Shown here: positions 4,736 to 32,027 of the stretch, piece by piece | Numbering within the stretch: the stretch's first letter is position 1 | How the letters are laid out: every line of letters starts with the position of its first letter | Source of the DNA: a virus | Virus record (IMG/VR): IMGVR_UViG_3300033064_000066 | Span: 1-37,184 of that record | Direction: 5' to 3' (one strand) | DNA: 37,184 nt | Translations under genes and position numbers: made by a program | The notes under the pieces: model-generated | Seen by the model: only the letters and a program-made list of their open reading frames with translations | Told to the model about the DNA's origin: nothing | Database searches by the model: none

Positions 4736-6436
4736 TTACCTTGCAAGTGCGTTTTTATTTTCGCGGATAACTCCACCCGCCTGCATACCTATTAAAGCGT
4801 TACGAACGCTTTCATTGCTTAATCCTTCTGCCAAGTTTTTATACTTATCGTATTTAGGTAAAATATTAGCTTGGCCTTTTGGCGATAACATACGTTGCCG
4901 TGTATACGCTGAAAGTAATTCTGGCGCAATTGCACCTATAAATGCACCAGGCCCGCCGCCAACTACTGCACCAGTAAAAGCCCCTGCGCCACTAAGACTA
5001 CGACCTAAAACTGTTCCTGCACCTGGTGTACCAATTGTACTAGGGGGTACGTTAACTCTTGGAAAAGTATTAGCAAATTCAGCTATAGTTTTTAAATCAC
5101 CTGTCATATACTTATCGTTTTGGATATCTCGACTTAATTTTTTAGCGTCTACAGAACCTGAACCTACACGGATAGCGTCTTCAATTGTATGACTAATTGC
5201 CATGCGTTGACGTGATGCTTTAAATTGTTCTAATAAATTTGCTAATTTAGGGTCGCCCGATGCTTCTAAATTACGCGCAATTTGACTTTCTAAAGCCGTA
5301 GATATATCAAGTTGCGATTTAGCTAAAGCATTTTCGCCTTTTCTAAAATTACCGCTAGCTTGTTCACGTAAATTTTTAATAACATCTACGGCATCCGCAG
5401 CGTCAAATTTTTCAACTTGATATCTAGAAATTAATTTACCTACTTCATCAGGTACGGCTTCAGGAAAAGATTTAGATGGGCCTGTATATTTTGATTGAAT
5501 ATTAGCTAGATCATCTAAATAAACATTATCCGCAACAATGTTGCCTAAATTTTTAATAGGTTCATAGCCTTTAGCGTATTCTGCTGTGCGAATACTTTTC
5601 ATTGCTTCAGGTGTCAACGCAGAATTTTCAGTTAAACCTACAGCGCGGCGAGCTACTTTATCTGCCATTTGTTGATTCTTAATAGATGCAAGTTGCTCTA
5701 GATAAGTTTTACCCGCAATTCGTTCTTTTATAACATTTGCGCCAGTAGGCGTTAAACTACCAGGTGTTACAACAAAACCTTCTCTTTGCGCGGCAAGAAC
5801 ATTTGCGTCACGAACAACGTTGGCTTCTTTTTGTGACTGTAACAAAGCATTTTTAGACTTTGCCATCATTTCTACTGGTTTTACTACAACATTAAGTGGG
5901 TTTGTAGCCGATGCAGCGGTTGTTAATGCACCTGCGGTCTTAGCTAATCCAACTTTACTTGCGGCGGCTGCGCCACCTGAGAATAACAACGATAGATCAC
6001 TAATAGCGCCAACAGGATCTTCAGCTACAGTACGCTTAATTTTTTCCCAATCGCCATAACGATCTTTATAAATACCGCCAATAGCGTTAGCCGTATCAAT
6101 AGATTTTGCTAAACCTTCAGGGTTTTCGCTAACATTTACAACAAATTTTTGCGCTTGTTCTGGCAAAGCGTTATAGAAACCACCGCCAATAGCTTGGCTT
6201 ATTGTTTGTAATGTTTCTGCTGGACTTGTAATAGCTTGATACACTCCTGAAACAGCGCTAGCGGCGCTTTTAGGTAGATTTTTTAACGCGGCAGCAGGTA
6301 CTTCGCTACCAGCATAAGCACGTCGTTGATATGGCGCGTCAGACATAGTAACAGAAGATTTATCCCAAGTAATATCTTCTTTTTGAGGGGATACTGGCGC
6401 TGCAGGCGCGTCCCAAACAATTTGTTCAGCAGACAT
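4736..6436 (-). CDS. Ejection/internal virion protein, gp16-like position
   Basis: A 566-residue protein at the position where P22-like phages encode the last ejection protein (gp16). The N-terminus is Ala/Pro-rich and disordered-looking (VWDAPAAPVSPQKED). The middle is helical with a hydrophobic Gly/Ala stretch (LLFSGGAAAASKVGLAKTAG). The C-terminal part has another Gly/Ala-rich segment, GAFTGAVVGGGPGAFIGAIA, that could insert in membrane. Such segments are expected in proteins that exit the capsid and help DNA cross the cell envelope. Sequence similarity to P22 gp16 is not evident by eye, so the assignment rests on order and composition. Its ATG overlaps the upstream stop by one base. Confidence 0.65.
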   Translation of the reverse strand: MSAEQIVWDAPAAPVSPQKEDITWDKSSVTMSDAPYQRRAYAGSEVPAAALKNLPKSAASAVSGVYQAITSPAETLQTISQAIGGGFYNALPEQAQKFVVNVSENPEGLAKSIDTANAIGGIYKDRYGDWEKIKRTVAEDPVGAISDLSLLFSGGAAAASKVGLAKTAGALTTAASATNPLNVVVKPVEMMAKSKNALLQSQKEANVVRDANVLAAQREGFVVTPGSLTPTGANVIKERIAGKTYLEQLASIKNQQMADKVARRAVGLTENSALTPEAMKSIRTAEYAKGYEPIKNLGNIVADNVYLDDLANIQSKYTGPSKSFPEAVPDEVGKLISRYQVEKFDAADAVDVIKNLREQASGNFRKGENALAKSQLDISTALESQIARNLEASGDPKLANLLEQFKASRQRMAISHTIEDAIRVGSGSVDAKKLSRDIQNDKYMTGDLKTIAEFANTFPRVNVPPSTIGTPGAGTVLGRSLSGAGAFTGAVVGGGPGAFIGAIAPELLSAYTRQRMLSPKGQANILPKYDKYKNLAEGLSNESVRNALIGMQAGGVIRENKNALAR

Positions 6437-7656
6437 TATTGATACTCCCTAGTGCCGTCTGCGTACTCTACTACCGTTTTTCCTGCATTAGGGCCACTAG
6501 TAACTTTACCTGTTTTAACAGGCGCGCCTCGTGGCAAATCAACTTTAAGGGGGATATTAGTTTTAATACCCTCTACGTTTTTATTGTGCAGTTTAATAAC
6601 ATTTCGTGCTGCGGTATCATTAATATCGAGTACTTTACGAATAGCTTTTTCGTCCATTGTAATTGCCCCCGCAGCAATTTTTTCTGCGTACATACGGTCA
6701 GCGTCAGATAACCCAGTACCCGCACCAAATTGTTTAATTAACTTAGCGGTATTTTGACCCATAGCGGCGGCATACGCTTGAGAGTTAGCAGACGCATCAG
6801 CGTAACCAGCATCAATACCCGCCGTTTTAAGTGCTTGGTTAAGCCCCACAAAGAAATCAGCGCCAGCGCCTGTAATAGCGCCAGATTTAAGAAGATTACG
6901 CCCAACTTCGTTTGTTTGTAAAATAGACGCCGCATCCATAGCGCCTTCTCTACTTTTAATAAGCGTTTCCGCTTGTTTTCCACCAAGTGTTTTTTCAAAC
7001 TCTTTTTCTTGTGTAGGCAAATTAACTTGTGTTGATCCCGCGCGTTTTAATGCAATTTGATTAGCTAAAAAGTCTGGGTTTTGCTGACCAAGTTGAAAAT
7101 TTCTAAACTCAGTTGTAGGCGCTCGTTGTTTAAAAAATTCGTCTGTTTTAGTACCAAGCATTGTAAAATGTTCTTTACGTTGCTCTTCATTCATAGACGC
7201 TACAGATTGCCATTGTTGTTTAGCTGCGTCAGGTGTTATTTTACCTTTTTTAACGCTATCCTCTAAATGCGCTAAAACATTATTGTCGGACGGGTTAAAC
7301 ACTAAATTTTTAAACGCTTCTCTACTGTGTTCTAAATCTTGTGCGCTAATTTCATTTTGAAGTTTAGTAGCTTGTAAACCTGATGTTTTTGCTGCGGCTT
7401 GTTTTGTTTGAAATTCTAATCCTAGCGCAGGATCAATTCTAATTATTTTAGAAATATAATCAGGATCGTTAGGGTCTAATTCGCGCAATCTATTACGATT
7501 TTCTATACCTTGCTGCGCTTCTTGCATTTTTAACGCATTAAGTTGTTGGCTTTGTTGCCCACTTTGAATTTGCGCTACTGCCGCCAATTGATTTAATGGA
7601 TTTTCAATTTGAACGGGCCTATAGCCCATTGCGATATTTGGATCAATAGTTGCCAT
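6436..7656 (-). CDS. Ejection/internal virion protein, gp20-like position
   Basis: A 406-residue protein, helical and rich in Gln/Ala/Lys. The N-terminal coil (LNQLAAVAQIQSGQQSQQLN) is typical of phage injection proteins. The C-terminal third has an ordered motif, GAGTGLSDADRMYAEKIAAG then ITMDEKAIRKVLDIN, that I recognise from internal virion or DNA transfer proteins of many podoviruses. The start is supported by an AGGATAAGGAAT ribosome site. It lies between the repeat-containing gene 7666-8724 and the gp16-position gene, which matches the gp7/gp20/gp16 order of P22. Its exact partner in P22 cannot be fixed from sequence alone. Confidence 0.65.
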   Translation of the reverse strand: MATIDPNIAMGYRPVQIENPLNQLAAVAQIQSGQQSQQLNALKMQEAQQGIENRNRLRELDPNDPDYISKIIRIDPALGLEFQTKQAAAKTSGLQATKLQNEISAQDLEHSREAFKNLVFNPSDNNVLAHLEDSVKKGKITPDAAKQQWQSVASMNEEQRKEHFTMLGTKTDEFFKQRAPTTEFRNFQLGQQNPDFLANQIALKRAGSTQVNLPTQEKEFEKTLGGKQAETLIKSREGAMDAASILQTNEVGRNLLKSGAITGAGADFFVGLNQALKTAGIDAGYADASANSQAYAAAMGQNTAKLIKQFGAGTGLSDADRMYAEKIAAGAITMDEKAIRKVLDINDTAARNVIKLHNKNVEGIKTNIPLKVDLPRGAPVKTGKVTSGPNAGKTVVEYADGTREYQ

Positions 7657-7665
7657 ATTTATTCC

Positions 7666-8724
7666 TTATCCTATTCCAGTTCCACCATAAGTAAGCGGTG
7701 TAGAATAATCCATTGTTGTAGGGCCAGTTAAATAATTTCCACCGCGATTAGCGGCTAATTGATTTACTAAATTCTGATTTTGATAAAAATTTAACGCTTG
7801 ACCTACGCCACCACTTAACGCGTTAGAGCCACCAACGTAGCCAGACGCTCTAGCATTGCCTGAACCAATAATGTTACTACCTTGAGCGTTGCCAAATGCG
7901 CCTAACGCGGCGGTTTGTCCTGACCCTAAATTACCGTATGTATTAGTAGCTCCCGTAGCAAAATTTTGCGCTGCTTGTTGGGCTTGTTGAGTAGCTGACT
8001 GCCCAACGCCTGCTAAACTTTGTAGCGGCGCAAGTGTGTTAGTTCTTTCAGTTTGGAAACGATTAAAAGCATTACCGTATGCTTGTTCTTGCGCTGCACG
8101 TTGGGCTTGATAACGGTTAAAAGCGTTTTGATACTCTTGCGATTGTGTATTACGATTAGTTTGAAAACGATTGTAAGCGTTGCCGTATTCTTGCGATGCT
8201 AAATCAGATCCATAGCGTTGCGCTCCTTTAAGAGTAGCGCCTGACAACAAGCCACCTCTTGACGCTGCTGTACGGTCAAGGGCTTTCATGCCTTCAGATA
8301 AACGAAACGCATAGCCTGGGTCTGCTTGAAAATCGGCTGCGCCAAAGTTTTTCATGGCGGAGGCTGGATCGTAACCTGCTACACCACCAAAATTTTGCAT
8401 AGCAGATGCTGGATCATAACCTGGCACACCGCCAAACTTAGCTGAACCGTATGGGCCTTGCAACTGCGCTAACAACATATTTTGACCAGTAATACCGCCT
8501 TGCCTAAATGGTTCGCCTAATTCAATTTGTTTGTTGTATTGTTCACGTTGCAACGCTAATTGTTTATCCGCAGTCTGACTTTGGATATCCATTTGTTGAG
8601 CAGAAATATCTCGTTGCGCTTGCGTAGCTTCGCCTGCTGCTTGTGATTGCGCGCTAGAGGCTCGGCTAGCGGTATACGCGCCTAATATAGCACTACCGCC
8701 TATTACGGTTGCAATTCCAGACAT
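7666..8724 (-). CDS. DNA transfer/ejection protein with internal repeats, gp7-like position
   Basis: A 352-residue protein preceded by AAGGAGAAATTA. The N-terminus has a Gly/Ala hydrophobic segment (IATVIGGSAILGAYTAS), then a Gln-rich coil. Two 15-residue repeats (GGVPGYDPASAMQNF type) occupy residues 97-126. Next comes DPGYAFRLSEGMKALDRTAA followed by SRGGLLSG, a signature widely found in phage DNA-injection proteins. Three 18-residue repeats (QEYGNAYNRFQTNRN type) occupy residues 178-231. The C-terminal 110 residues are Gly/Asn/Ala-rich and low in complexity. The likely role is a minor virion protein ejected with DNA. Confidence 0.7.
   Translation of the reverse strand: MSGIATVIGGSAILGAYTASRASSAQSQAAGEATQAQRDISAQQMDIQSQTADKQLALQREQYNKQIELGEPFRQGGITGQNMLLAQLQGPYGSAKFGGVPGYDPASAMQNFGGVAGYDPASAMKNFGAADFQADPGYAFRLSEGMKALDRTAASRGGLLSGATLKGAQRYGSDLASQEYGNAYNRFQTNRNTQSQEYQNAFNRYQAQRAAQEQAYGNAFNRFQTERTNTLAPLQSLAGVGQSATQQAQQAAQNFATGATNTYGNLGSGQTAALGAFGNAQGSNIIGSGNARASGYVGGSNALSGGVGQALNFYQNQNLVNQLAANRGGNYLTGPTTMDYSTPLTYGGTGIG
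8032..8193 (-). repeat. Three 18-codon tandem repeats inside ejection gene
   Basis: Residues 178-195, 196-213 and 214-231 of the 7666-8724 product share the pattern Q(E/A)Y(G/Q)NA(Y/F)NR(F/Y)Q, then a polar linker. The period is 18 residues, about five helical turns, so the array would form a long helix with a regular aromatic/Asn face. Confidence 0.85.
8347..8436 (-). repeat. Two 15-codon tandem repeats inside ejection gene
   Basis: Residues 97-111 and 112-126 of the 7666-8724 product are near-identical copies: FGGVPGYDPASAMQN and FGGVAGYDPASAMKN. A degenerate third unit (FGAADFQADPGYAF) follows directly. Confidence 0.9.
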
Positions 8725-8725
8725 A

Positions 8726-9598
8726 TTAATTTCTCCTTATCGCTAAACTTAACGCTTGACGATAGTCAATTGTAACTTCTTTACCTAAATTACCGCCTTG
8801 ACAACCGTCAATAGTTGTAGCAGCTACTAAATTTATATCTCCATTATCCAACAAAATCATGATTGCGTTGGGATTTTTTGAATGATTAGTAAATCTACCC
8901 GCAGGTGTACGCAATCCATTAATTCTAGCGGGGGCAATTATCTCCCCTGCAACAATGTTTCCTGTAGCAAATAATCCTTGCCCATCTATATTTGATGGCG
9001 CAGCCATTACTTTATAGCTACCTAACGGGAAATCACATTGGTCGTCTAAATTTTGAACTTGTTTTTGTACTGTTTCTTGATCAAAACCGTATTCGGCAAT
9101 AGCCACGTAATAATCCGCAATATCTTCAGAATGGTCAAAAGATAGCAATAATTGCCTATTTTTTTGATGTTCTTGCCAAGTTTCGCTTTTATTTAAAAAC
9201 ATAGATTCTAAAGTTTCTATATTTGTTTCGTTAGTTGCGTAAATGTTTTGCCAAATTACAGTCTCATGAATATACCCAATTTTGCGCCCTGGTTTGCTTA
9301 CAAAAGTTTGTGGCGCTGTTAATTCAGTATGCGTACCATCATCGTTAACCATTGTAACCCTACCAGCCAACATATTGTTTAAATGTGTTGTTGTTTGGTA
9401 ATGACCAATTGAAAATGATCCTGCGGGGATAGTTACTTCGCGAATATAGATGTTAGGGCCAAAACGATGTACAACAGGGCAATCAATTTGAGGTTGCTGT
9501 AAAAAAGCATCCTCAAGAACTTCAATCTTACCTTTTAAATCAAAAGACTTATTAGGTAAAAACCCTTGTCCGTAAGTGACGTTCATTTCAATTTGCAT
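8726..9598 (-). CDS. Cupin-SET domain fusion protein in virion block
   Basis: A 290-residue protein with two recognisable parts. Residues about 40-132 look like a cupin/beta-barrel: IPAGSFSIGHYQTTTHLNNM with H66 and H72, then SKPGRKIGYIHETVIWQN. Residues 203-290 look like a SET domain: DGQGLFAT (AdoMet-binding G-x-G), GRFTNHSKNPNA (the NHS..PN motif, 234-245) and EVTIDYRQAL (the terminal E-T-Y segment, 274-283). SET proteins usually transfer methyl groups to lysine. The substrate is unknown; a virion or host protein is possible. The gene is embedded between a fibre-like gene and the ejection genes. No strong ribosome site is seen, and ATG at 9598 or 9586 could be the start. Confidence 0.75.
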   Translation of the reverse strand: MQIEMNVTYGQGFLPNKSFDLKGKIEVLEDAFLQQPQIDCPVVHRFGPNIYIREVTIPAGSFSIGHYQTTTHLNNMLAGRVTMVNDDGTHTELTAPQTFVSKPGRKIGYIHETVIWQNIYATNETNIETLESMFLNKSETWQEHQKNRQLLLSFDHSEDIADYYVAIAEYGFDQETVQKQVQNLDDQCDFPLGSYKVMAAPSNIDGQGLFATGNIVAGEIIAPARINGLRTPAGRFTNHSKNPNAIMILLDNGDINLVAATTIDGCQGGNLGKEVTIDYRQALSLAIRRN

Positions 9599-9599
9599 A

Positions 9600-10499
9600 T
9601 TATTCTAGCAATAAGTTGTTGTTTGATGCTGCTTGCGTTGTTACCCAATTAGTGCCATCTGACACAATGGTTGCCCAATTACCTGCTACGTTATCTAGTA
9701 TGGCTGTACCCGCAGCTCCGCCTGCCCTTGATACAACATTACTAGACGCCGACACTAACAGTTGATCTTGATAGTTAATAAAATATAAAACCCGCCCTGT
9801 GTTAGCAGATGGCGACGGTAGCGTAACCGTGCAAGTAGAGCCTGTCTTATTGTTTATTAGCCATGTATCTGTAGATGCTACACTAAAATTAGCCGTTTTG
9901 GTAACTGGCGCATTTGTTGTTACGGTGCCACTTGTGCTTAACGTGCCTGCTGCAAAGGTCAAGCCTGTACCTACGGTGACATTACTAAAACCACCTGCGC
10001 CATTGCCGTACAAAATAGACGTGCCACTTGTAGCTGGTGCGTAATCTGTACCACTTACGGCTGCGCTAATTGCTGTACCGTTGCCTTTAAGAATACCTGT
10101 AATGGTTGTACGTAATGTAATAGCGGGTGTAGCGCCGCTTGTTACCGTGCCAGCAAAGCCGTTAGCTGATACTACCGATATGCTAGTAACCGTACCACCT
10201 GTACCAGTAATAGTTATACTACCTGCACCATTGGTAATGGTTATCCCTGTACCCGCCGTCAAAGTTCTTAAATCGTATTTTTGTCCTGCTGTATTGCCAA
10301 TTAACAACTGACCGTTAGTAGGGTAACTACTTAGCCCTGTACCGCCATTGGGTATCTGAATAATACCTAAATCAGCGCCTACAATCGTATAAATGTTGTT
10401 AAAAAACCTAAACCATTCTCGTGACATTAAACCTGTGCGTGGGTCAAGTATTTCAACCCTAGGCGCAGGAATCTGCGTAATGTTAATTGGATCAGGCAT
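9600..10499 (-). CDS. Fibre-like virion protein, Gly/Thr-rich
   Basis: A 299-residue protein. Its N-terminus (LDPRTGLMSREWFRFFNNIY) is a conserved opening seen in phage tail or needle-associated proteins and probably anchors it to the virion. After that come IPNGGTGLSSYPTNGQLLIG and a long Thr/Ser/Gly-rich, beta-repeat region (ITGTGGTVTSISVVSANGFA), typical of trimeric fibres. The C-terminus is a compact beta domain (TGRVLYFINYQDQLLVSASS; NWATIVSDGTNW). It sits where P22 has the needle gene gp26, directly after gp10, and overlaps gp10 by 8 bases. It could be a needle-tip or short fibre; there is no clear gp26 homology. Confidence 0.65.
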   Translation of the reverse strand: MPDPINITQIPAPRVEILDPRTGLMSREWFRFFNNIYTIVGADLGIIQIPNGGTGLSSYPTNGQLLIGNTAGQKYDLRTLTAGTGITITNGAGSITITGTGGTVTSISVVSANGFAGTVTSGATPAITLRTTITGILKGNGTAISAAVSGTDYAPATSGTSILYGNGAGGFSNVTVGTGLTFAAGTLSTSGTVTTNAPVTKTANFSVASTDTWLINNKTGSTCTVTLPSPSANTGRVLYFINYQDQLLVSASSNVVSRAGGAAGTAILDNVAGNWATIVSDGTNWVTTQAASNNNLLLE

Positions 10500-12132
10500 T
10501 AGTTGGTGACAGCAATAACTCAGCGTTGGTAATGGCTATCTTTACTGGATCGGTGCCTGACACTTCGTAGACACGATCACGTAGCTTCTGTGTCATGCCA
10601 AGCCGACGCCAAAATGTACGGGAGCCATACTGACCAATTTTGCCCATTGACGACCAATGTTCATTTGACCATGTGTGACCTGCATCGTCTGACCATCGCA
10701 ACATAGCTTGCGGGTTATACCCAGGCGTTGCAGGATAACTATTAGTTACTAAAATATATCCTTCAGGGTATGGTTCAGGATAGTCAATCGTACTAAGCGT
10801 TTCAAACTCATCGTTAGACTCAGTAGTTAACTCTAACCCAGCTTCAGTAGCAATATAACCTTGTATAAACTCAGCCGTAATTTCTAGGCCATCTTCTGTT
10901 GTTAAATCTTCAGCTTCATTGCCAGGATATAACTCTAATCCAACGCCTGTTTCAGCGTTAAGCTGCAAAGTATGTTGTGACGTACGTTTAAAGTTATTTT
11001 GTCCTGGCATCAACGCGCGCCATGATCGTAACCATTTTTGAGGTTGCCCGTTATCTGCGTAGGTATTTAAGTCAAGTTGATAAATGTCACCGTTTTGGTA
11101 ATCCCCAACAATAATCGTACCGCCAAAATTACATTGGTTATTGCTACGATGCCTTGTAAACTCACCGTTGTTAAAGCCTGCACGCTCATGCCACGCTTGT
11201 GTAGCTGCGTCATAAACCCATGTGGCGTTACCTGTTGGAAAACTAATTACATAGAACGCATGACCGTCTTGTTGGTATGTATACGCTACCGCATCGGATA
11301 TATTACCGTACTGTTGGATTTGCCACTCAATTGCATGAGTAGAAACCCGAACGCCTGTGTAGCCGTTAGCACGATAAACAATACCTTGACCACGGGCGTC
11401 TGTGCCTAACCAAAACAAACCGTTATCTAATTTAGCAACTGAAAATGCTGCAACGCAACCAATCTCATTAAAAGCACCTTGAATACGGGTAAGAGGAAAG
11501 TCGGCAGCGCCTGAGTCATACCAAACTTCTACTGAATCAGTACCAAACACCCATAACTCACGGTGGTCGGATATAACAGCAACTACGCCGTCTGGTGAAC
11601 CTTCAGCACTAGCAAAGTCTAATGGATCAACGGATGTACCGTCTAACAACTGAGAAACCCATATCTTTTGACTATTTGGTTGATTAAAGACAAAATAACC
11701 ATCTAAATACGATACGGTTACAGCACCAGGGAAATCAGGGTCAGTAATCTTAGCAAATACATCGGTTACTTCGTTATAGATATAACCGTCGGGGTTACAC
11801 GCTAAAAATATTTGCGTACCGTTATCGGCAATAGATACTGGGCCTGTACCTGATACAGTACCTAAAAGTTTAGGTGTAGCAGATGTGCTTGTTAATTTAT
11901 AAAATTGTTGCCCAGAAACTACATAAAAATCTGAGCCATTTGTTTGATGCGCCCACAATGCTCGGATAGGGCCTTCGCCAACAGTTTGTAAAAATTTTAG
12001 CCCAGGCGCTCGTTGTAAAAACCCTGTTTCTTCTCCTTCAATTACAACTTCAGGGAAAAGGTTAACCATACGGGCATCCGCTGCATTAACGCTACGTGCA
12101 ACATACGACTGACCTAAAATCGGGGTTTTCAT
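10492..12132 (-). CDS. Packaged DNA stabilization / tail hub protein, P22 gp10-like
   Basis: A 546-residue protein beginning MKTPILGQSYVARSVNAADA and NLFPEVVIEG, an opening shared with P22 gp10-type tail hub proteins. These bind below the gp4 ring, plug the portal and hold packaged DNA. The body is beta-rich with propeller-like repeats (YVVSGQQFYKLTST, ISDHRELWVFGTDSVEVWYD, LFWLGTDARGQGIVYRANGY). The C-terminal third (MLRWSDDAGHTWSNEHW; RTFWRRLGMTQKLRDRVYEV) is also typical of the family. It is longer than P22 gp10 (about 470 residues). No clear ribosome site precedes the ATG, which lies 3 bases after the upstream stop and may be coupled. Confidence 0.85.
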   Translation of the reverse strand: MKTPILGQSYVARSVNAADARMVNLFPEVVIEGEETGFLQRAPGLKFLQTVGEGPIRALWAHQTNGSDFYVVSGQQFYKLTSTSATPKLLGTVSGTGPVSIADNGTQIFLACNPDGYIYNEVTDVFAKITDPDFPGAVTVSYLDGYFVFNQPNSQKIWVSQLLDGTSVDPLDFASAEGSPDGVVAVISDHRELWVFGTDSVEVWYDSGAADFPLTRIQGAFNEIGCVAAFSVAKLDNGLFWLGTDARGQGIVYRANGYTGVRVSTHAIEWQIQQYGNISDAVAYTYQQDGHAFYVISFPTGNATWVYDAATQAWHERAGFNNGEFTRHRSNNQCNFGGTIIVGDYQNGDIYQLDLNTYADNGQPQKWLRSWRALMPGQNNFKRTSQHTLQLNAETGVGLELYPGNEAEDLTTEDGLEITAEFIQGYIATEAGLELTTESNDEFETLSTIDYPEPYPEGYILVTNSYPATPGYNPQAMLRWSDDAGHTWSNEHWSSMGKIGQYGSRTFWRRLGMTQKLRDRVYEVSGTDPVKIAITNAELLLSPTNA

Positions 12133-17997: not shown

Positions 17998-20751
17998 TTA
18001 AAGCATAAGTGCCATTTGACGCCAAACTGCTGGCGTGGCGTTGTAAAGTGACCAGAACAATGGGGATGGGGTTACTGGGTTTTGGTTTGTGCTGTTTTGA
18101 ATAGCAATGTACACCTGACCATCTGAACCTTTAACTTGTTCGCCAGTAACGTAGGGATTGACAGCAGACCAAATTTCTTTCCAAGCTGCGCCAGTTGTAA
18201 TCAGTTTGATGCCTGCATAGTTTCCAGGTGGGGACTGATACCAAATTTGCATTGGTGTAGCAAATTTACCAACAACTGGAATGTCTGCAAACAAATCCAA
18301 TCCATTATTCTTTTTATTGCTTTCATAAATTGGAACTGTTGCATTTACTTGGTTTGCATCGCTTGCATATTGCCATGTGTAATCACGAATAGAATTTAAA
18401 GTATTATTCTTAAACATAAATGTTGTGCCAAAAACGCCACCACCAACAAAAGAAATACCAATAACAAACTTTGACGAAACTTTATTTTCCTCTAATAGAT
18501 ATGGGGAGTTTGCTAATCCACTTGCGCCCAAAGGAATGTCAATACCAATTGAACCTGTTGGAACTGTAACCGATGTATCAATACGATTATTATAAACTCT
18601 GACTGGAATATCTGGCGTAGTTGCGCCTGTTGATGTAGCGTTAGGCACTTTCACCGCAATTAAAACATCGCTATAATTTGCAGTATGATATGGATTTGTG
18701 TACGGCGAAACAGTAGATGCGCCCCCAACATACGCTCCAGTAAATAAAAGGGTGTTATTAGTAAAACTAAATCCGTATGTTGAACTATTAACGCCATCAA
18801 GCCTTGTATTTATAAATGTGTTTGCATCAATATTTGTAAGGCTTAATAAGTTTGGGGCAACTCTGCCAGTTTCATCTGCTAAGATGTCGCCTTGTTCATA
18901 GTGAAATGTATTCCCAAATAAAAATAACTGACGAAAATCTATTGTTGGCTCGTCAGCAGCAGAGTCAGAAAATAATACTGTACTGCGTTGTTTAATCCAA
19001 TAGCCACGTTCCAACCCATCTTGAAAAATGTAATTATTTTTCCAAACAATATTCATGGCAGATCGTTGTTGAGCCATAATGCTTGGGCCGTGTTCAGCGT
19101 AATTGCCTTCAAGCAATATGTTACTTGAACCTTCAGGTTCTAAACCAACATCGTCAATAGTTGATAGCCAATTGTTAGAGACTACAAAACGATCTCCCAT
19201 CGCCCACCAAATGCCACCTGATGCGCCATTAATTACGGTGTTATTAGAAATGATTGCGCCAATTAAATATCTTGTGTTTTTAATGTCTGAACCGTTTGGG
19301 CCAGGATTACCTGGGCCGCCATTACCATAAATACCCCAATAAATATCATTTATTTGATTATTTAAAATTTTAGCGTTGTTAGTGTTTGTAAAGTAAATGC
19401 CATCAATTGACATCCCTGGCCCAGGACGGGCGGCTTTAGTTTTTGTTACGTCATAACCAAAAATTTTATTGTTTTCAATTAACCAATTTTGGTTTAAGGC
19501 TGCAACACCGCCATTCATGGCAATAGTGTTGTAATTAAGTTCTTCTGCATACAACAAACCACATCCATAACATTCATTGCTGGTCAAGGTAAGATTATCA
19601 GTCCATCTTGCTCTTGCAAGATAAGCGGTTTCATCCCCATCGCAAACAAAATACAAATTATTGATAGTAATATTTGTTTTCTTATTCGTGCTTGGAACAG
19701 TTAAATCTTCAAGCAAAAATGCGTAAATAGTGTAATTTACTTGCTGGCCTACTGAATTGGTAAACACAAAATGTGTTTCATCTGTAGCTATAAATTCAAA
19801 TTCATTAGTTCCAGCTACGGGTACATAAGTTGCAATTGTTGTTGGCGATGCAATTGACCCACTACATCTAAGAAGTCTATTAGGTGTTGTGCCAAAATTT
19901 TGAACAATACTAAAACTTACTTTATATTTATTTCCCGCAACAACTGAAAATATGTTGGTTGTAGCTGAACCTGCACCGAGCGAATCTAAGGCGTTACCCG
20001 CGGTAAAAACACACCCTAAATCTGGCGCATTAAGAACAAAATTTTCGTAATTATCGCTAGGCACGCCGCCATTTTCCCAAGTTGTAATTAACTGACTTGG
20101 TGCGGTTCCCATTACATCAAAAATTGATGTTCTTGCAATAATTGGGCGCAATAAAATTTTTGACGCGGCTCCATTACCTTGAATTTTTACATTTGATGGA
20201 ACAGTAAGACAATATCCATCCCCACCAGAATAATTTGCTTGTGAAGAAACAAGATATGTGCCATCGGGGAAATATATGTTTTCAGCGCCTGAATCTAACG
20301 CAAATTGAATTGCTACAGTATCATCTGTTACGCCGTCACCAGTAGCCCCAAAATCTTGAACGCTTACTGATTCAGAAAGTTTAGCCTCAACGGTAGTTTG
20401 AACACTATGGGGAAAAGGTGGATCGTAATCAATATTATCTGCGTTTGATACTACGTCGTTTATACCTGTAATATTGTCATACGTACTAATAGTTACATTG
20501 GTACTAGTTTTAACAATAAACTTATACTGCAATTGGTTAGTTAACCAAATTTCACCGCTTGGTACGCGCCCAGCAGAATTTAAAACAATTGGGTTAGTAT
20601 GATTTATATTACCGCTAGAAGATGTATACGTTGTTTGCGGCGTCGTAGTGCCTGCTGCATACGTACCTAACAATCCCCCCGCCAAAGGAACACCATTGTT
20701 GTCAAAAAATTGCCAACCTGCGCCGCCTATTGGTGATAAAAAAACAGCCAT
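17998..20751 (-). CDS. Tailspike with pectate-lyase-like beta-helix
   Basis: A 917-residue tailspike, the largest gene. Residues 1-105 (FLSPIGGAGWQFFDNNGVPL; RVPSGEIWLTNQLQYKFIVK) form a head- or tail-binding domain as in many podoviral spikes. Residues 130-150 carry VQDFGATGDGVTDDTVAIQF, the opening of pectate-lyase-superfamily beta-helices. A long Asn/Gly-rich helix follows (ITINNLYFVC; WLIENNKIFGYDVTKTKAAR; ISNNTVINGASGGIWW). The last 60 residues (WSAVNPYVTGEQVKGSDGQV; FWSLYNATPAVWRQ) resemble small carbohydrate-binding modules. It should bind and perhaps cut a host surface polysaccharide. TTGGAG within the upstream gene's last codons is its ribosome site. Confidence 0.88.
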   Translation of the reverse strand: MAVFLSPIGGAGWQFFDNNGVPLAGGLLGTYAAGTTTPQTTYTSSSGNINHTNPIVLNSAGRVPSGEIWLTNQLQYKFIVKTSTNVTISTYDNITGINDVVSNADNIDYDPPFPHSVQTTVEAKLSESVSVQDFGATGDGVTDDTVAIQFALDSGAENIYFPDGTYLVSSQANYSGGDGYCLTVPSNVKIQGNGAASKILLRPIIARTSIFDVMGTAPSQLITTWENGGVPSDNYENFVLNAPDLGCVFTAGNALDSLGAGSATTNIFSVVAGNKYKVSFSIVQNFGTTPNRLLRCSGSIASPTTIATYVPVAGTNEFEFIATDETHFVFTNSVGQQVNYTIYAFLLEDLTVPSTNKKTNITINNLYFVCDGDETAYLARARWTDNLTLTSNECYGCGLLYAEELNYNTIAMNGGVAALNQNWLIENNKIFGYDVTKTKAARPGPGMSIDGIYFTNTNNAKILNNQINDIYWGIYGNGGPGNPGPNGSDIKNTRYLIGAIISNNTVINGASGGIWWAMGDRFVVSNNWLSTIDDVGLEPEGSSNILLEGNYAEHGPSIMAQQRSAMNIVWKNNYIFQDGLERGYWIKQRSTVLFSDSAADEPTIDFRQLFLFGNTFHYEQGDILADETGRVAPNLLSLTNIDANTFINTRLDGVNSSTYGFSFTNNTLLFTGAYVGGASTVSPYTNPYHTANYSDVLIAVKVPNATSTGATTPDIPVRVYNNRIDTSVTVPTGSIGIDIPLGASGLANSPYLLEENKVSSKFVIGISFVGGGVFGTTFMFKNNTLNSIRDYTWQYASDANQVNATVPIYESNKKNNGLDLFADIPVVGKFATPMQIWYQSPPGNYAGIKLITTGAAWKEIWSAVNPYVTGEQVKGSDGQVYIAIQNSTNQNPVTPSPLFWSLYNATPAVWRQMALML

Positions 20752-27486: not shown

Positions 27487-28185
27487 ATGCAAGTACATTT
27501 GACATTAAAAAGCGCTAACGTGAAAACGGGGGCGATCCCCGTTAGTACTACTGAAAAAAGATCATGCCCGCCAAAATGCCCGCATAAAAAGACGTGCTAT
27601 GCTAAACAAGGCCCGCTAGCGCTTCATTGGAATAAGGTTAGTAATAAGGAGCGCGGCGGCGCTTGGACTGAATTTTTAAACCAGATCAAACAATTCGAGA
27701 TTGGCCAATTATGGCGCCATAATCAAGCGGGTGATCTACCTGGCGCGGGCAATAAAATAGATAAAAATAAGCTACTATCATTAGTGACCGCTAATTCTAG
27801 CAGCAAGGCCGCGGGTTTTACGTATACACATAAGCCCGTTATTGGAAATGATGCTATTGCAAAAGAAAATAAAGCGCTAATAAAATTGGCCAATAAGAGC
27901 GGGTTTACGATCAATTTGAGCGCGGATAATTTAGCTCAAGCGGATAAGCTAGTCAAATTGAATATTGGCCCCGTAGTAACATTATTACCAGAAGATTACC
28001 AGGATAAAAGTACAACGCCCGCTGGTAATACTGTAATTGTTTGCCCCGCTCAAACCCGCGATAATATAAGCTGTAGCACTTGTAAATTATGCGCTAACGT
28101 AAACCGTACAGTAATTATAGGTTTTAAGGCCCATGGCAGCGCCAAAAAAGCCGCTAGCAAGATCTTTTATTTGAAGGCGGCGTAA
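27487..28185 (+). CDS. Cys-cluster early phage protein (DUF7227/gp88-like)
   Basis: A 232-residue protein, the largest of the early block. Near the N-terminus is SCPPKCPHKKTCYAKQGPLA (C27, C31, C37) and near the C-terminus CPAQTRDNISCSTCKLC (C186, C196, C199, C202). Between them are RHNQAGDLPG, GFTYTHKP and GFTINLSADNLAQADKL. These suggest an alternating beta-alpha fold, with the N-terminal CYA motif like that of mycobacteriophage gp88-type proteins. The cysteines probably bind metal or an Fe-S cluster. I recall related phage proteins as an uncharacterised family (possibly DUF7227). The ribosome site is AAGGAAAAC, in a repeated leader. Confidence 0.7.
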   Translation: MQVHLTLKSANVKTGAIPVSTTEKRSCPPKCPHKKTCYAKQGPLALHWNKVSNKERGGAWTEFLNQIKQFEIGQLWRHNQAGDLPGAGNKIDKNKLLSLVTANSSSKAAGFTYTHKPVIGNDAIAKENKALIKLANKSGFTINLSADNLAQADKLVKLNIGPVVTLLPEDYQDKSTTPAGNTVIVCPAQTRDNISCSTCKLCANVNRTVIIGFKAHGSAKKAASKIFYLKAA

Positions 28186-31325: not shown

Positions 31326-32027
31326 TTAAAGCGAACAAACCCTACAAGTATCTTTGCGCTTGTACTCACGCAACTTACGACCTGCATCAAATTCTTTAGA
31401 CAACAATTCTAAATTAGCAGGCCAATTATCTCTGCCTGGGCTTCTAAAAGTATGCCCAATTTTCTTTTCTAATGCCACACCTTCGGCGTATAAATCAGGA
31501 TAATTTTCGTACAAGTCGCGCCATTCGCCCAGACGTTGATAAGGACATAAAGCGCAGTCAGTACGTTTTGGTATGCAAATACCTTTTGAGTTTAGATAAT
31601 CCCAAACGTCTTTCTCATTCCAATTCCACTCACGCATTGGAAAACGAACTGTTATATCTTCACCGTACAAACCCTTACGATCCATTTCATCAGCGCGTAA
31701 GCCGACGTAAAGCGTAGATCCAGCAGGTAACGATTCAAAATAATCAATGGTCGGCTCAATCTTCAACCGAATCGTACACCATCTAGCAAATACATTAGGC
31801 AGCATATTAATTTTTTCAATTTCTTCAACCAACCCCCGCGCATGACGAACGCGTTGAATTGGCTCACCTAAAATATTTTCTAAGTTATCCCAATGCGCTT
31901 TCATGTCAGGCAACTCATTACCTGTTTCATTGCATATATAAACGTATTTGCGCGGCTCAACTTCAGCCAGGCGTAACGCCAACGCCGTTGAGTCTTTACC
32001 ACCGCTAAGTCCGACAATATGTTTCAT
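31326..32027 (-). CDS. PAPS reductase/DndC-like PP-loop ATP pyrophosphatase
   Basis: A 233-residue enzyme. VGLSGGKDSTALA (residues 5-17) is the PP-loop of N-type ATP pyrophosphatases, which adenylate a substrate, often in sulfur transfer. RWCTIRLKIEP (C84) is a feature shared with PAPS reductases and the DNA phosphorothioation enzyme DndC. DCALC (C158, C161) and the C-terminal CRVC (C228, C231) add likely Fe-S or metal ligands. GLRADEMDRKG also fits the family. The gene overlaps the polymerase stop by ATGA (32024-32027), so the two are co-translated. Roles to consider are DNA sulfur modification, nucleotide metabolism or assimilatory sulfate reduction; no IscS or Dnd partners are seen. Confidence 0.82.
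   Translation of the reverse strand: MKHIVGLSGGKDSTALALRLAEVEPRKYVYICNETGNELPDMKAHWDNLENILGEPIQRVRHARGLVEEIEKINMLPNVFARWCTIRLKIEPTIDYFESLPAGSTLYVGLRADEMDRKGLYGEDITVRFPMREWNWNEKDVWDYLNSKGICIPKRTDCALCPYQRLGEWRDLYENYPDLYAEGVALEKKIGHTFRSPGRDNWPANLELLSKEFDAGRKLREYKRKDTCRVCSL

Follow-up and report, generated by a model that had tools for sequence, protein, structure and literature searches.

The window analysed here, the whole 37,184-nucleotide stretch of IMG/VR virus record IMGVR_UViG_3300033064_000066, carries at positions 8726-9598 a complete open reading frame with an ATG start on the minus strand, whose product, P0001, has 290 residues; the plus strand of the same interval is full of stops. 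Gene order leading into this frame runs from a gp10-like gene (10492-12132) through a fibre-like gene (9600-10499, minus strand; phrog_31660 tail fiber, 7.6e-10) to the gene for P0001, which is followed by a DNA-ejection gene (7666-8724, minus strand; phrog_598, 5.7e-17). The first-pass annotation had read this gene as a cupin-SET fusion lying in the virion block between fibre-like and ejection genes, a reading that is borne out by profiles, a structural model and the gene context. Given the full-length match of P0001 to phrog_34170 (2.4e-93) and the 217 SET-bearing homologues gathered, its domains are not a product of chance. Members of phrog_34170, including gp30 of P26218 and ANY29560 of PH1, have the same cupin-SET architecture and virion-block location, and the PHROGs entry carries no function or domain description.

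The layout of P0001, all of it encoded on the minus strand, was examined with an AlphaFold2 model built on 32 of the protein’s own relatives (mean pLDDT 89, pTM 0.84), and the pTM suggests that the domains are packed in a fixed arrangement. The N-terminal peptide MQIEMNVTYGQGFLPNK (residues 1-17; 9548-9598) is predicted to be disordered and precedes a cupin or RmlC-like barrel (residues 37-121; 9236-9490), a helical linker assigned by DSSP of the model (residues 127-181; 9056-9220) and a mini-SET domain without the SET-I insert (residues 193-290; 8729-9022). Within the latter lie the landmarks that had been picked out at first pass, each of them confirmed: G206-Q-G208, the AdoMet-loop-type GxG of SET motif I (8975-8983); N238-H-S-K-N-P-N244, SET motif III (NHSxxPN), which closes the stretch R230-T-P-A-G-R-F-T-N-H-S-K-N-P-N244 bearing the family signature RTPxGR (8867-8911); and E274-V-T-I-D-Y279, SET motif IV with its catalytic-type Tyr (8762-8779), located near the C-terminus and followed by RQALSLAIRRN. 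Mean pairwise identity across the 32 relatives is highest in the SET domain (55%), followed by the cupin (51%) and the linker (38%).

The cupin part is weak by sequence, with Pfam Cupin_2 found in only 3 of the 32 relatives; in the model it is clearly an RmlC-like double-stranded beta barrel of the cupin fold, matching RPA4178 (3lag), ppnP and HP0902 with Z 9.4-9.9 (Foldseek E 3.7e-5 against 3lag). No phage tail structure appeared among these fold matches, which is not evidence of absence. The first cupin motif has H66 in 27 of 31 relatives, H72 in 26 of 31 and Q or H at position 68, and no conserved His was found among the aligned relatives in the second motif, PGRKxGY. Because the second-motif His is absent and the first-motif His residues are partly conserved, a 3-His/1-Glu site is not formed and the cupin is unlikely to be a metal enzyme.

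The N-terminal half also matches phrog_12032, labelled “short tail fiber protein” (4.7e-33), and phrog_24280, labelled “tail fiber adhesin” (1.8e-24). Members of these two families, among them Bbp23 of Bordetella phage BPP-1 and proteins of Vibrio phages 234P9, VPMS1 and VvAW1 and of Thalassomonas phage BA3, carry a homologous cupin in the virion block, mostly in the same slot, lack SET and have their function by annotation only. Such labels on cupin-only relatives would suit an alternative, in our judgement somewhat unlikely, in which the SET domain is non-catalytic and gives a tail-tip adhesin (“short tail fibre”) a structural or ligand-binding part whose exchange alters contact with the cell surface. 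However, the labels derive from annotation; our literature search found no supporting experiment, and neither proteomics nor a structure placing the fibre proteins of phrog_12032 or phrog_24280 at the tail tip.

For the C-terminal part, Pfam PF00856 scores 21.0 bits on P0001, against a gathering score of 22.4, and reaches 34.3 bits in PH1 and 38.1 bits in the relative L091; all 32 aligned relatives match it at E<=0.01 (best E 2.7e-10). The family profile retrieves only SET lysine methyltransferases from the PDB (KMT2A 1.1e-8, EZH2 6e-6, vSET 1.3e-4). These observations were further strengthened by structure comparison, in which residues ~190-285 of the model match MLL1 SET, EZH2, SET8 and PBCV-1 vSET. 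The closest solved SET by structure is that of the chromatin enzyme MLL1/KMT2A (Z 10.8, rmsd 1.9 Å, 80 aligned residues, 35% identity), with both of its halves aligned over residues 190-280. The viral H3K27 methyltransferase vSET (A612L) of PBCV-1 resembles the phage protein in its small SET domain, GxG, NHS..PN and ExxxxY (Z 9.7, rmsd 1.9, 80 aligned, 29% identity), whereas its aligned range spans 103 residues rather than 86, about 17 more, and it stands alone and belongs to a virus that infects algae. A predicted fold lacking the SET core had been named at the outset as a result that would count against the fusion; AlphaFold2 and the structure comparison instead favoured SET. Judged by the model, the C-terminal part of P0001 is a member of the SET fold, with putative lysine methyltransferase activity.

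Residues of the active-site type are kept in this family. G206, G208, R230, T231, P232, G234, R235, N238, H239, N244, E274, Y279 and R280 are invariant in 32 of 32 relatives, and the motif III Ser is present in 26 of them. In wider nonredundant sets of 96 cupin-SET and 65 standalone proteins, selected with a motif covering RTxxG[RG][FY]xNH so that those columns are invariant by construction, the motif IV Tyr, which like E274 and G208 lies outside the selection motif, is Tyr in all 158 readable proteins (94/94 cupin-SET and 64/64 standalone) and never Phe. Y279 aligns with MLL1 Y3944, whose position we take to be that of the catalytic tyrosine Y335 of SET7/9, and the N-H of SET domains contacts AdoMet. 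This strict retention of GxG, NH and Tyr argues against a purely structural role for the domain.

What has been lost points the other way. In the alignment, the blocks of motif I and motif III are separated by 10 residues in the phage protein and by 45, including SET-I, in MLL1; SET-I and the strand with the motif II Tyr are therefore absent, and the roughly 35 missing residues correspond to the substrate groove and motif II Tyr of known methyltransferases. P0001 thus lacks, as far as the alignment tells, the SET-I and motif II Tyr expected of active SET lysine methyltransferases (KMT), a loss that agrees with a non-catalytic module. Conserved motif residues also hold the SET core together, so that their conservation alone is no proof of catalysis. 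We favour an enzyme since the AdoMet-site-type residues are strictly kept and standalone versions of the domain exist, and we do so with caution since the substrate-binding insert is absent.

The location of the gene is informative as well. In the window, in P26218 and in Vibrio phages it follows the gp10-like closure protein (as well as a small or fibre-like gene) and precedes the first ejection gene. This slot, with tail nozzle/fibre genes on one side and ejection genes on the other, is kept in phages ranging from P22-like to T7-like. Cupin-only homologues fill the same slot in Vibrio phages and in T7-like Sphaerotilus phages; in Sphaerotilus phage R1 (L353:2938-4022) the homologue lies between tail tubular B and the homologue of T7 gp14, which is the position of T7 gene 13. 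The cupin-only homologue of BPP-1 stands elsewhere in the structural block, outside the slot, and directly before it (bbp24-bbp23, L039:8510-9429) is a gene for a GNAT acetyltransferase (Pfam 6.5e-07), another fold of protein-modifying type adjoining a cupin gene.

This placement raises the possibility of an assembly factor that corresponds in position to T7 gp13, acting in the cytosol on ejection or core proteins, absent from or scarce in the mature virion, and modifying ejection proteins through SET before they are packaged. The slot, flanked by the nozzle and the first internal virion protein and in Sphaerotilus phage R1 lying immediately before the T7_gp14 homologue, speaks for it, as do the same position of T7 gene 13, whose product Pfam terms a probable scaffold protein, and the phiPsa17 proteome, which lists gp14-16 as detected and gp13 not (PMC4517105). 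We nevertheless consider such a factor improbable: T7 gp13 has no sequence link to the cupin, and a Pfam search with it returned only its own family. As a homologue, T7 gp13 was rejected, the cupin-SET protein, the Sphaerotilus cupin protein and gp13 having no common Pfam family and sharing gene position alone.

The SET domain is gained, lost and permuted among relatives. Among the 217 SET-bearing slot proteins, 214 have the order cupin-SET, two (L016 and L091) have SET-cupin and one is cut by a contig end; HMM order in the permuted pair is helical-SET-cupin, the C-terminal part of the helical linker travelling with SET. Within the window’s clade (gp10 mostly 86-93% identical) the slot holds cupin plus SET, cupin only (158, 177 or 131 aa) or SET plus cupin, and whole relatives share about 89-100% identity in their core proteins. 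Most slot genes of the clade have the first ~45 nt in common (MQIEMNVTYGQGFLP) and then diverge abruptly into different downstream modules. The N-terminal peptide occurs as variants in L005 and L013 and is absent in L006; as it was itself one of the scan patterns, its frequency is inflated by selection. The slot proteins of L009, with SET, and L027, without it, are 97% identical over their first 145 residues and then part, which we read from the alignment as the helical-SET part having been gained or lost recently. Since close relatives carry cupin only, cupin plus SET or SET plus cupin, including 97%-identical cupins with and without SET, the domain is an optional module, and since close relatives do without this add-on, virions are unlikely to have it as a core requirement. 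The abrupt change of allele behind the constant first 45 nt, together with free shuffling among otherwise ~90-99% identical phages, resembles the behaviour of receptor-binding modules, in keeping with a SET domain exchanged to change surface contact.

By comparing the SET allele with those of the ejection genes at 6436-7656 and 4736-6436, taken as possible targets, we found a co-variation that was striking in four whole contigs and failed in 36 loci. L004 and L005 have the same SET allele with other ejection alleles, and L027 and L031 are cupin-only, yet their third ejection gene is of the window’s type (83%). The absence of co-variation weakens the case for an assembly factor that modifies ejection proteins. 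Linkage of SET with the fibre gene at 9600-10499 was rejected too: L003 combines the same SET allele with a 69% fibre, and L017 and L020 combine other alleles with 93-95% fibres.

Variation was also observed elsewhere in the window. Near-identical phages carry widely differing alleles of the second and third ejection-type genes (4736-7656), which are shuffled independently of the slot. The pectate-lyase-fold tailspike (17998-20751) shares its N-terminal ~10% alone with four otherwise near-identical phages, and its receptor-binding part is therefore swapped in all of them. A PAPS-reductase-like gene (31326-32027; phrog_424, 8.6e-44) is unmatched in all four close relatives that were compared, and a DUF7227 gene on the opposite strand (27487-28185; 1.1e-87) is present in two of the four.

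The first-pass statement that SET proteins are mostly eukaryotic or found in some bacteria proved misleading, as members of both the cupin-SET family and a sister family of mini-SETs abound in phages. In IMG/VR, one set of patterns confirmed 397 relatives, and a looser set at least 598. A mixed mini-SET profile scan gave 555 confirmed proteins among the 600 matches listed, some of them cupin-SET, and all 80 loci kept from it are of the standalone type. Standalone mini-SETs of ~100 aa (L181:3950-4255, L182:3962-4258 and L265-L344), with the signature RTPLGGF, are widespread in marine phages, namely pelagiphages and T4-like cyanophages. Their family aligns with the cupin-SET family (hhalign prob 99, E 4e-19), and a representative was modelled as a SET domain (pLDDT 89.5, Z up to 12.6). 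They match phrog_28741 (Kolga gp27, P-SSM7_204), which like P0001 has the RTPxG[GR]F signature, no SET-I, and NHS and Tyr kept; unlike P0001 it has no cupin, another gene neighbourhood and GG for GR.

In P-SSM7 the standalone gene adjoins nrdB/talC, and in Kolga it follows an AAA gene. Since these relatives lie outside tail blocks, the mini-SET domain would work without a tail scaffold, and its presence alone in non-structural neighbourhoods argues against a mere adhesin module. The standalone copies among metabolic or early genes would also be compatible with a host-takeover enzyme that is merely located in the late operon, one that methylates a host protein and uses its cupin for dimerisation or targeting. 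This we regard as very improbable, given that the late-gene slot is conserved and that cupin-only homologues sit in the virion block of different phage families.

A single scan of cellular genome contigs returned six loci; five are on MAG contigs of 5-35 kb, and the sixth lies on a Paraburkholderia MAG contig of 369 kb. A bacterial chromosomal origin was rejected, as most of the six look like phage contigs and no cellular source was shown. L098, L099 and L100, contigs of 34-35 kb in Lentisphaera, Bathyarchaeota and Proteobacteria MAGs that carry the gene, resemble phage genomes, and their host labels may therefore be binning errors. The plasmid search gave cupin-only relatives and none with SET. 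Cultured carriers are P26218, a Rhodoferax phage (55% identity), and PH1, a Pseudoalteromonas phage (30.5%) in whose protein the GGxxG loop ahead of motif IV is missing. UniProt labels some phage entries as SET, and we found no papers in the open-access literature on phage cupin-SET proteins, phage mini-SETs, BPP-1 Bbp23 or phage lysine methylation. SET and cupin are both known domains.

Overall, P0001 is most likely a cupin tail/ejection-slot protein with a probable AdoMet-dependent protein methyltransferase acting in the infected cell. The cupin-SET gene fills the podophage slot that has the tail nozzle/fibre gene on one side and the genes for ejection proteins on the other, and a constant slot function, presumably a part in the tail/ejection apparatus or its assembly, would reside on the metal-poor cupin barrel. 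On this scaffold the mini-SET is an accessory, optional module whose most likely role is to bind AdoMet and to methylate an amine of a protein, either on lysine or at the N-terminus. AdoMet occurs inside cells only, and catalysis would therefore take place in the cytosol of the infected cell, where AdoMet is present, during assembly or after ejection; that AdoMet is not expected outside cells would also suit a non-catalytic domain at the tail tip. We infer for P0001 the binding of AdoMet, catalysis, a target and a location in the virion, and our literature search found no proteomic evidence for a cupin-SET protein in a virion. That a methyltransferase is carried by the tail/ejection-slot protein has, in our estimate, an even chance of being correct. 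A fuller version is more tentative, possible rather than probable: an active minimal SET methyltransferase without SET-I, in or with the podophage tail/ejection apparatus, its substrate site completed by another element (RTPxGR strand, helical linker or partner chain), would methylate tail, ejection or host proteins, and close relatives would gain, lose and permute it as a module.

To our knowledge, almost all work on SET lysine methyltransferases concerns chromatin and a few bacterial effectors. The group described here is large and phage-borne, keeps the active-site-type residues while the substrate-binding insert is gone, and sits on a tail/ejection-slot protein in hundreds of environmental phages. 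The cultured carriers P26218 and PH1 make the enzyme and structural readings directly testable. If active, the domain would be a minimal SET enzyme and a first example of protein methylation linked to the assembly or entry of virions; an inactive domain would represent SET reused as a structural part.
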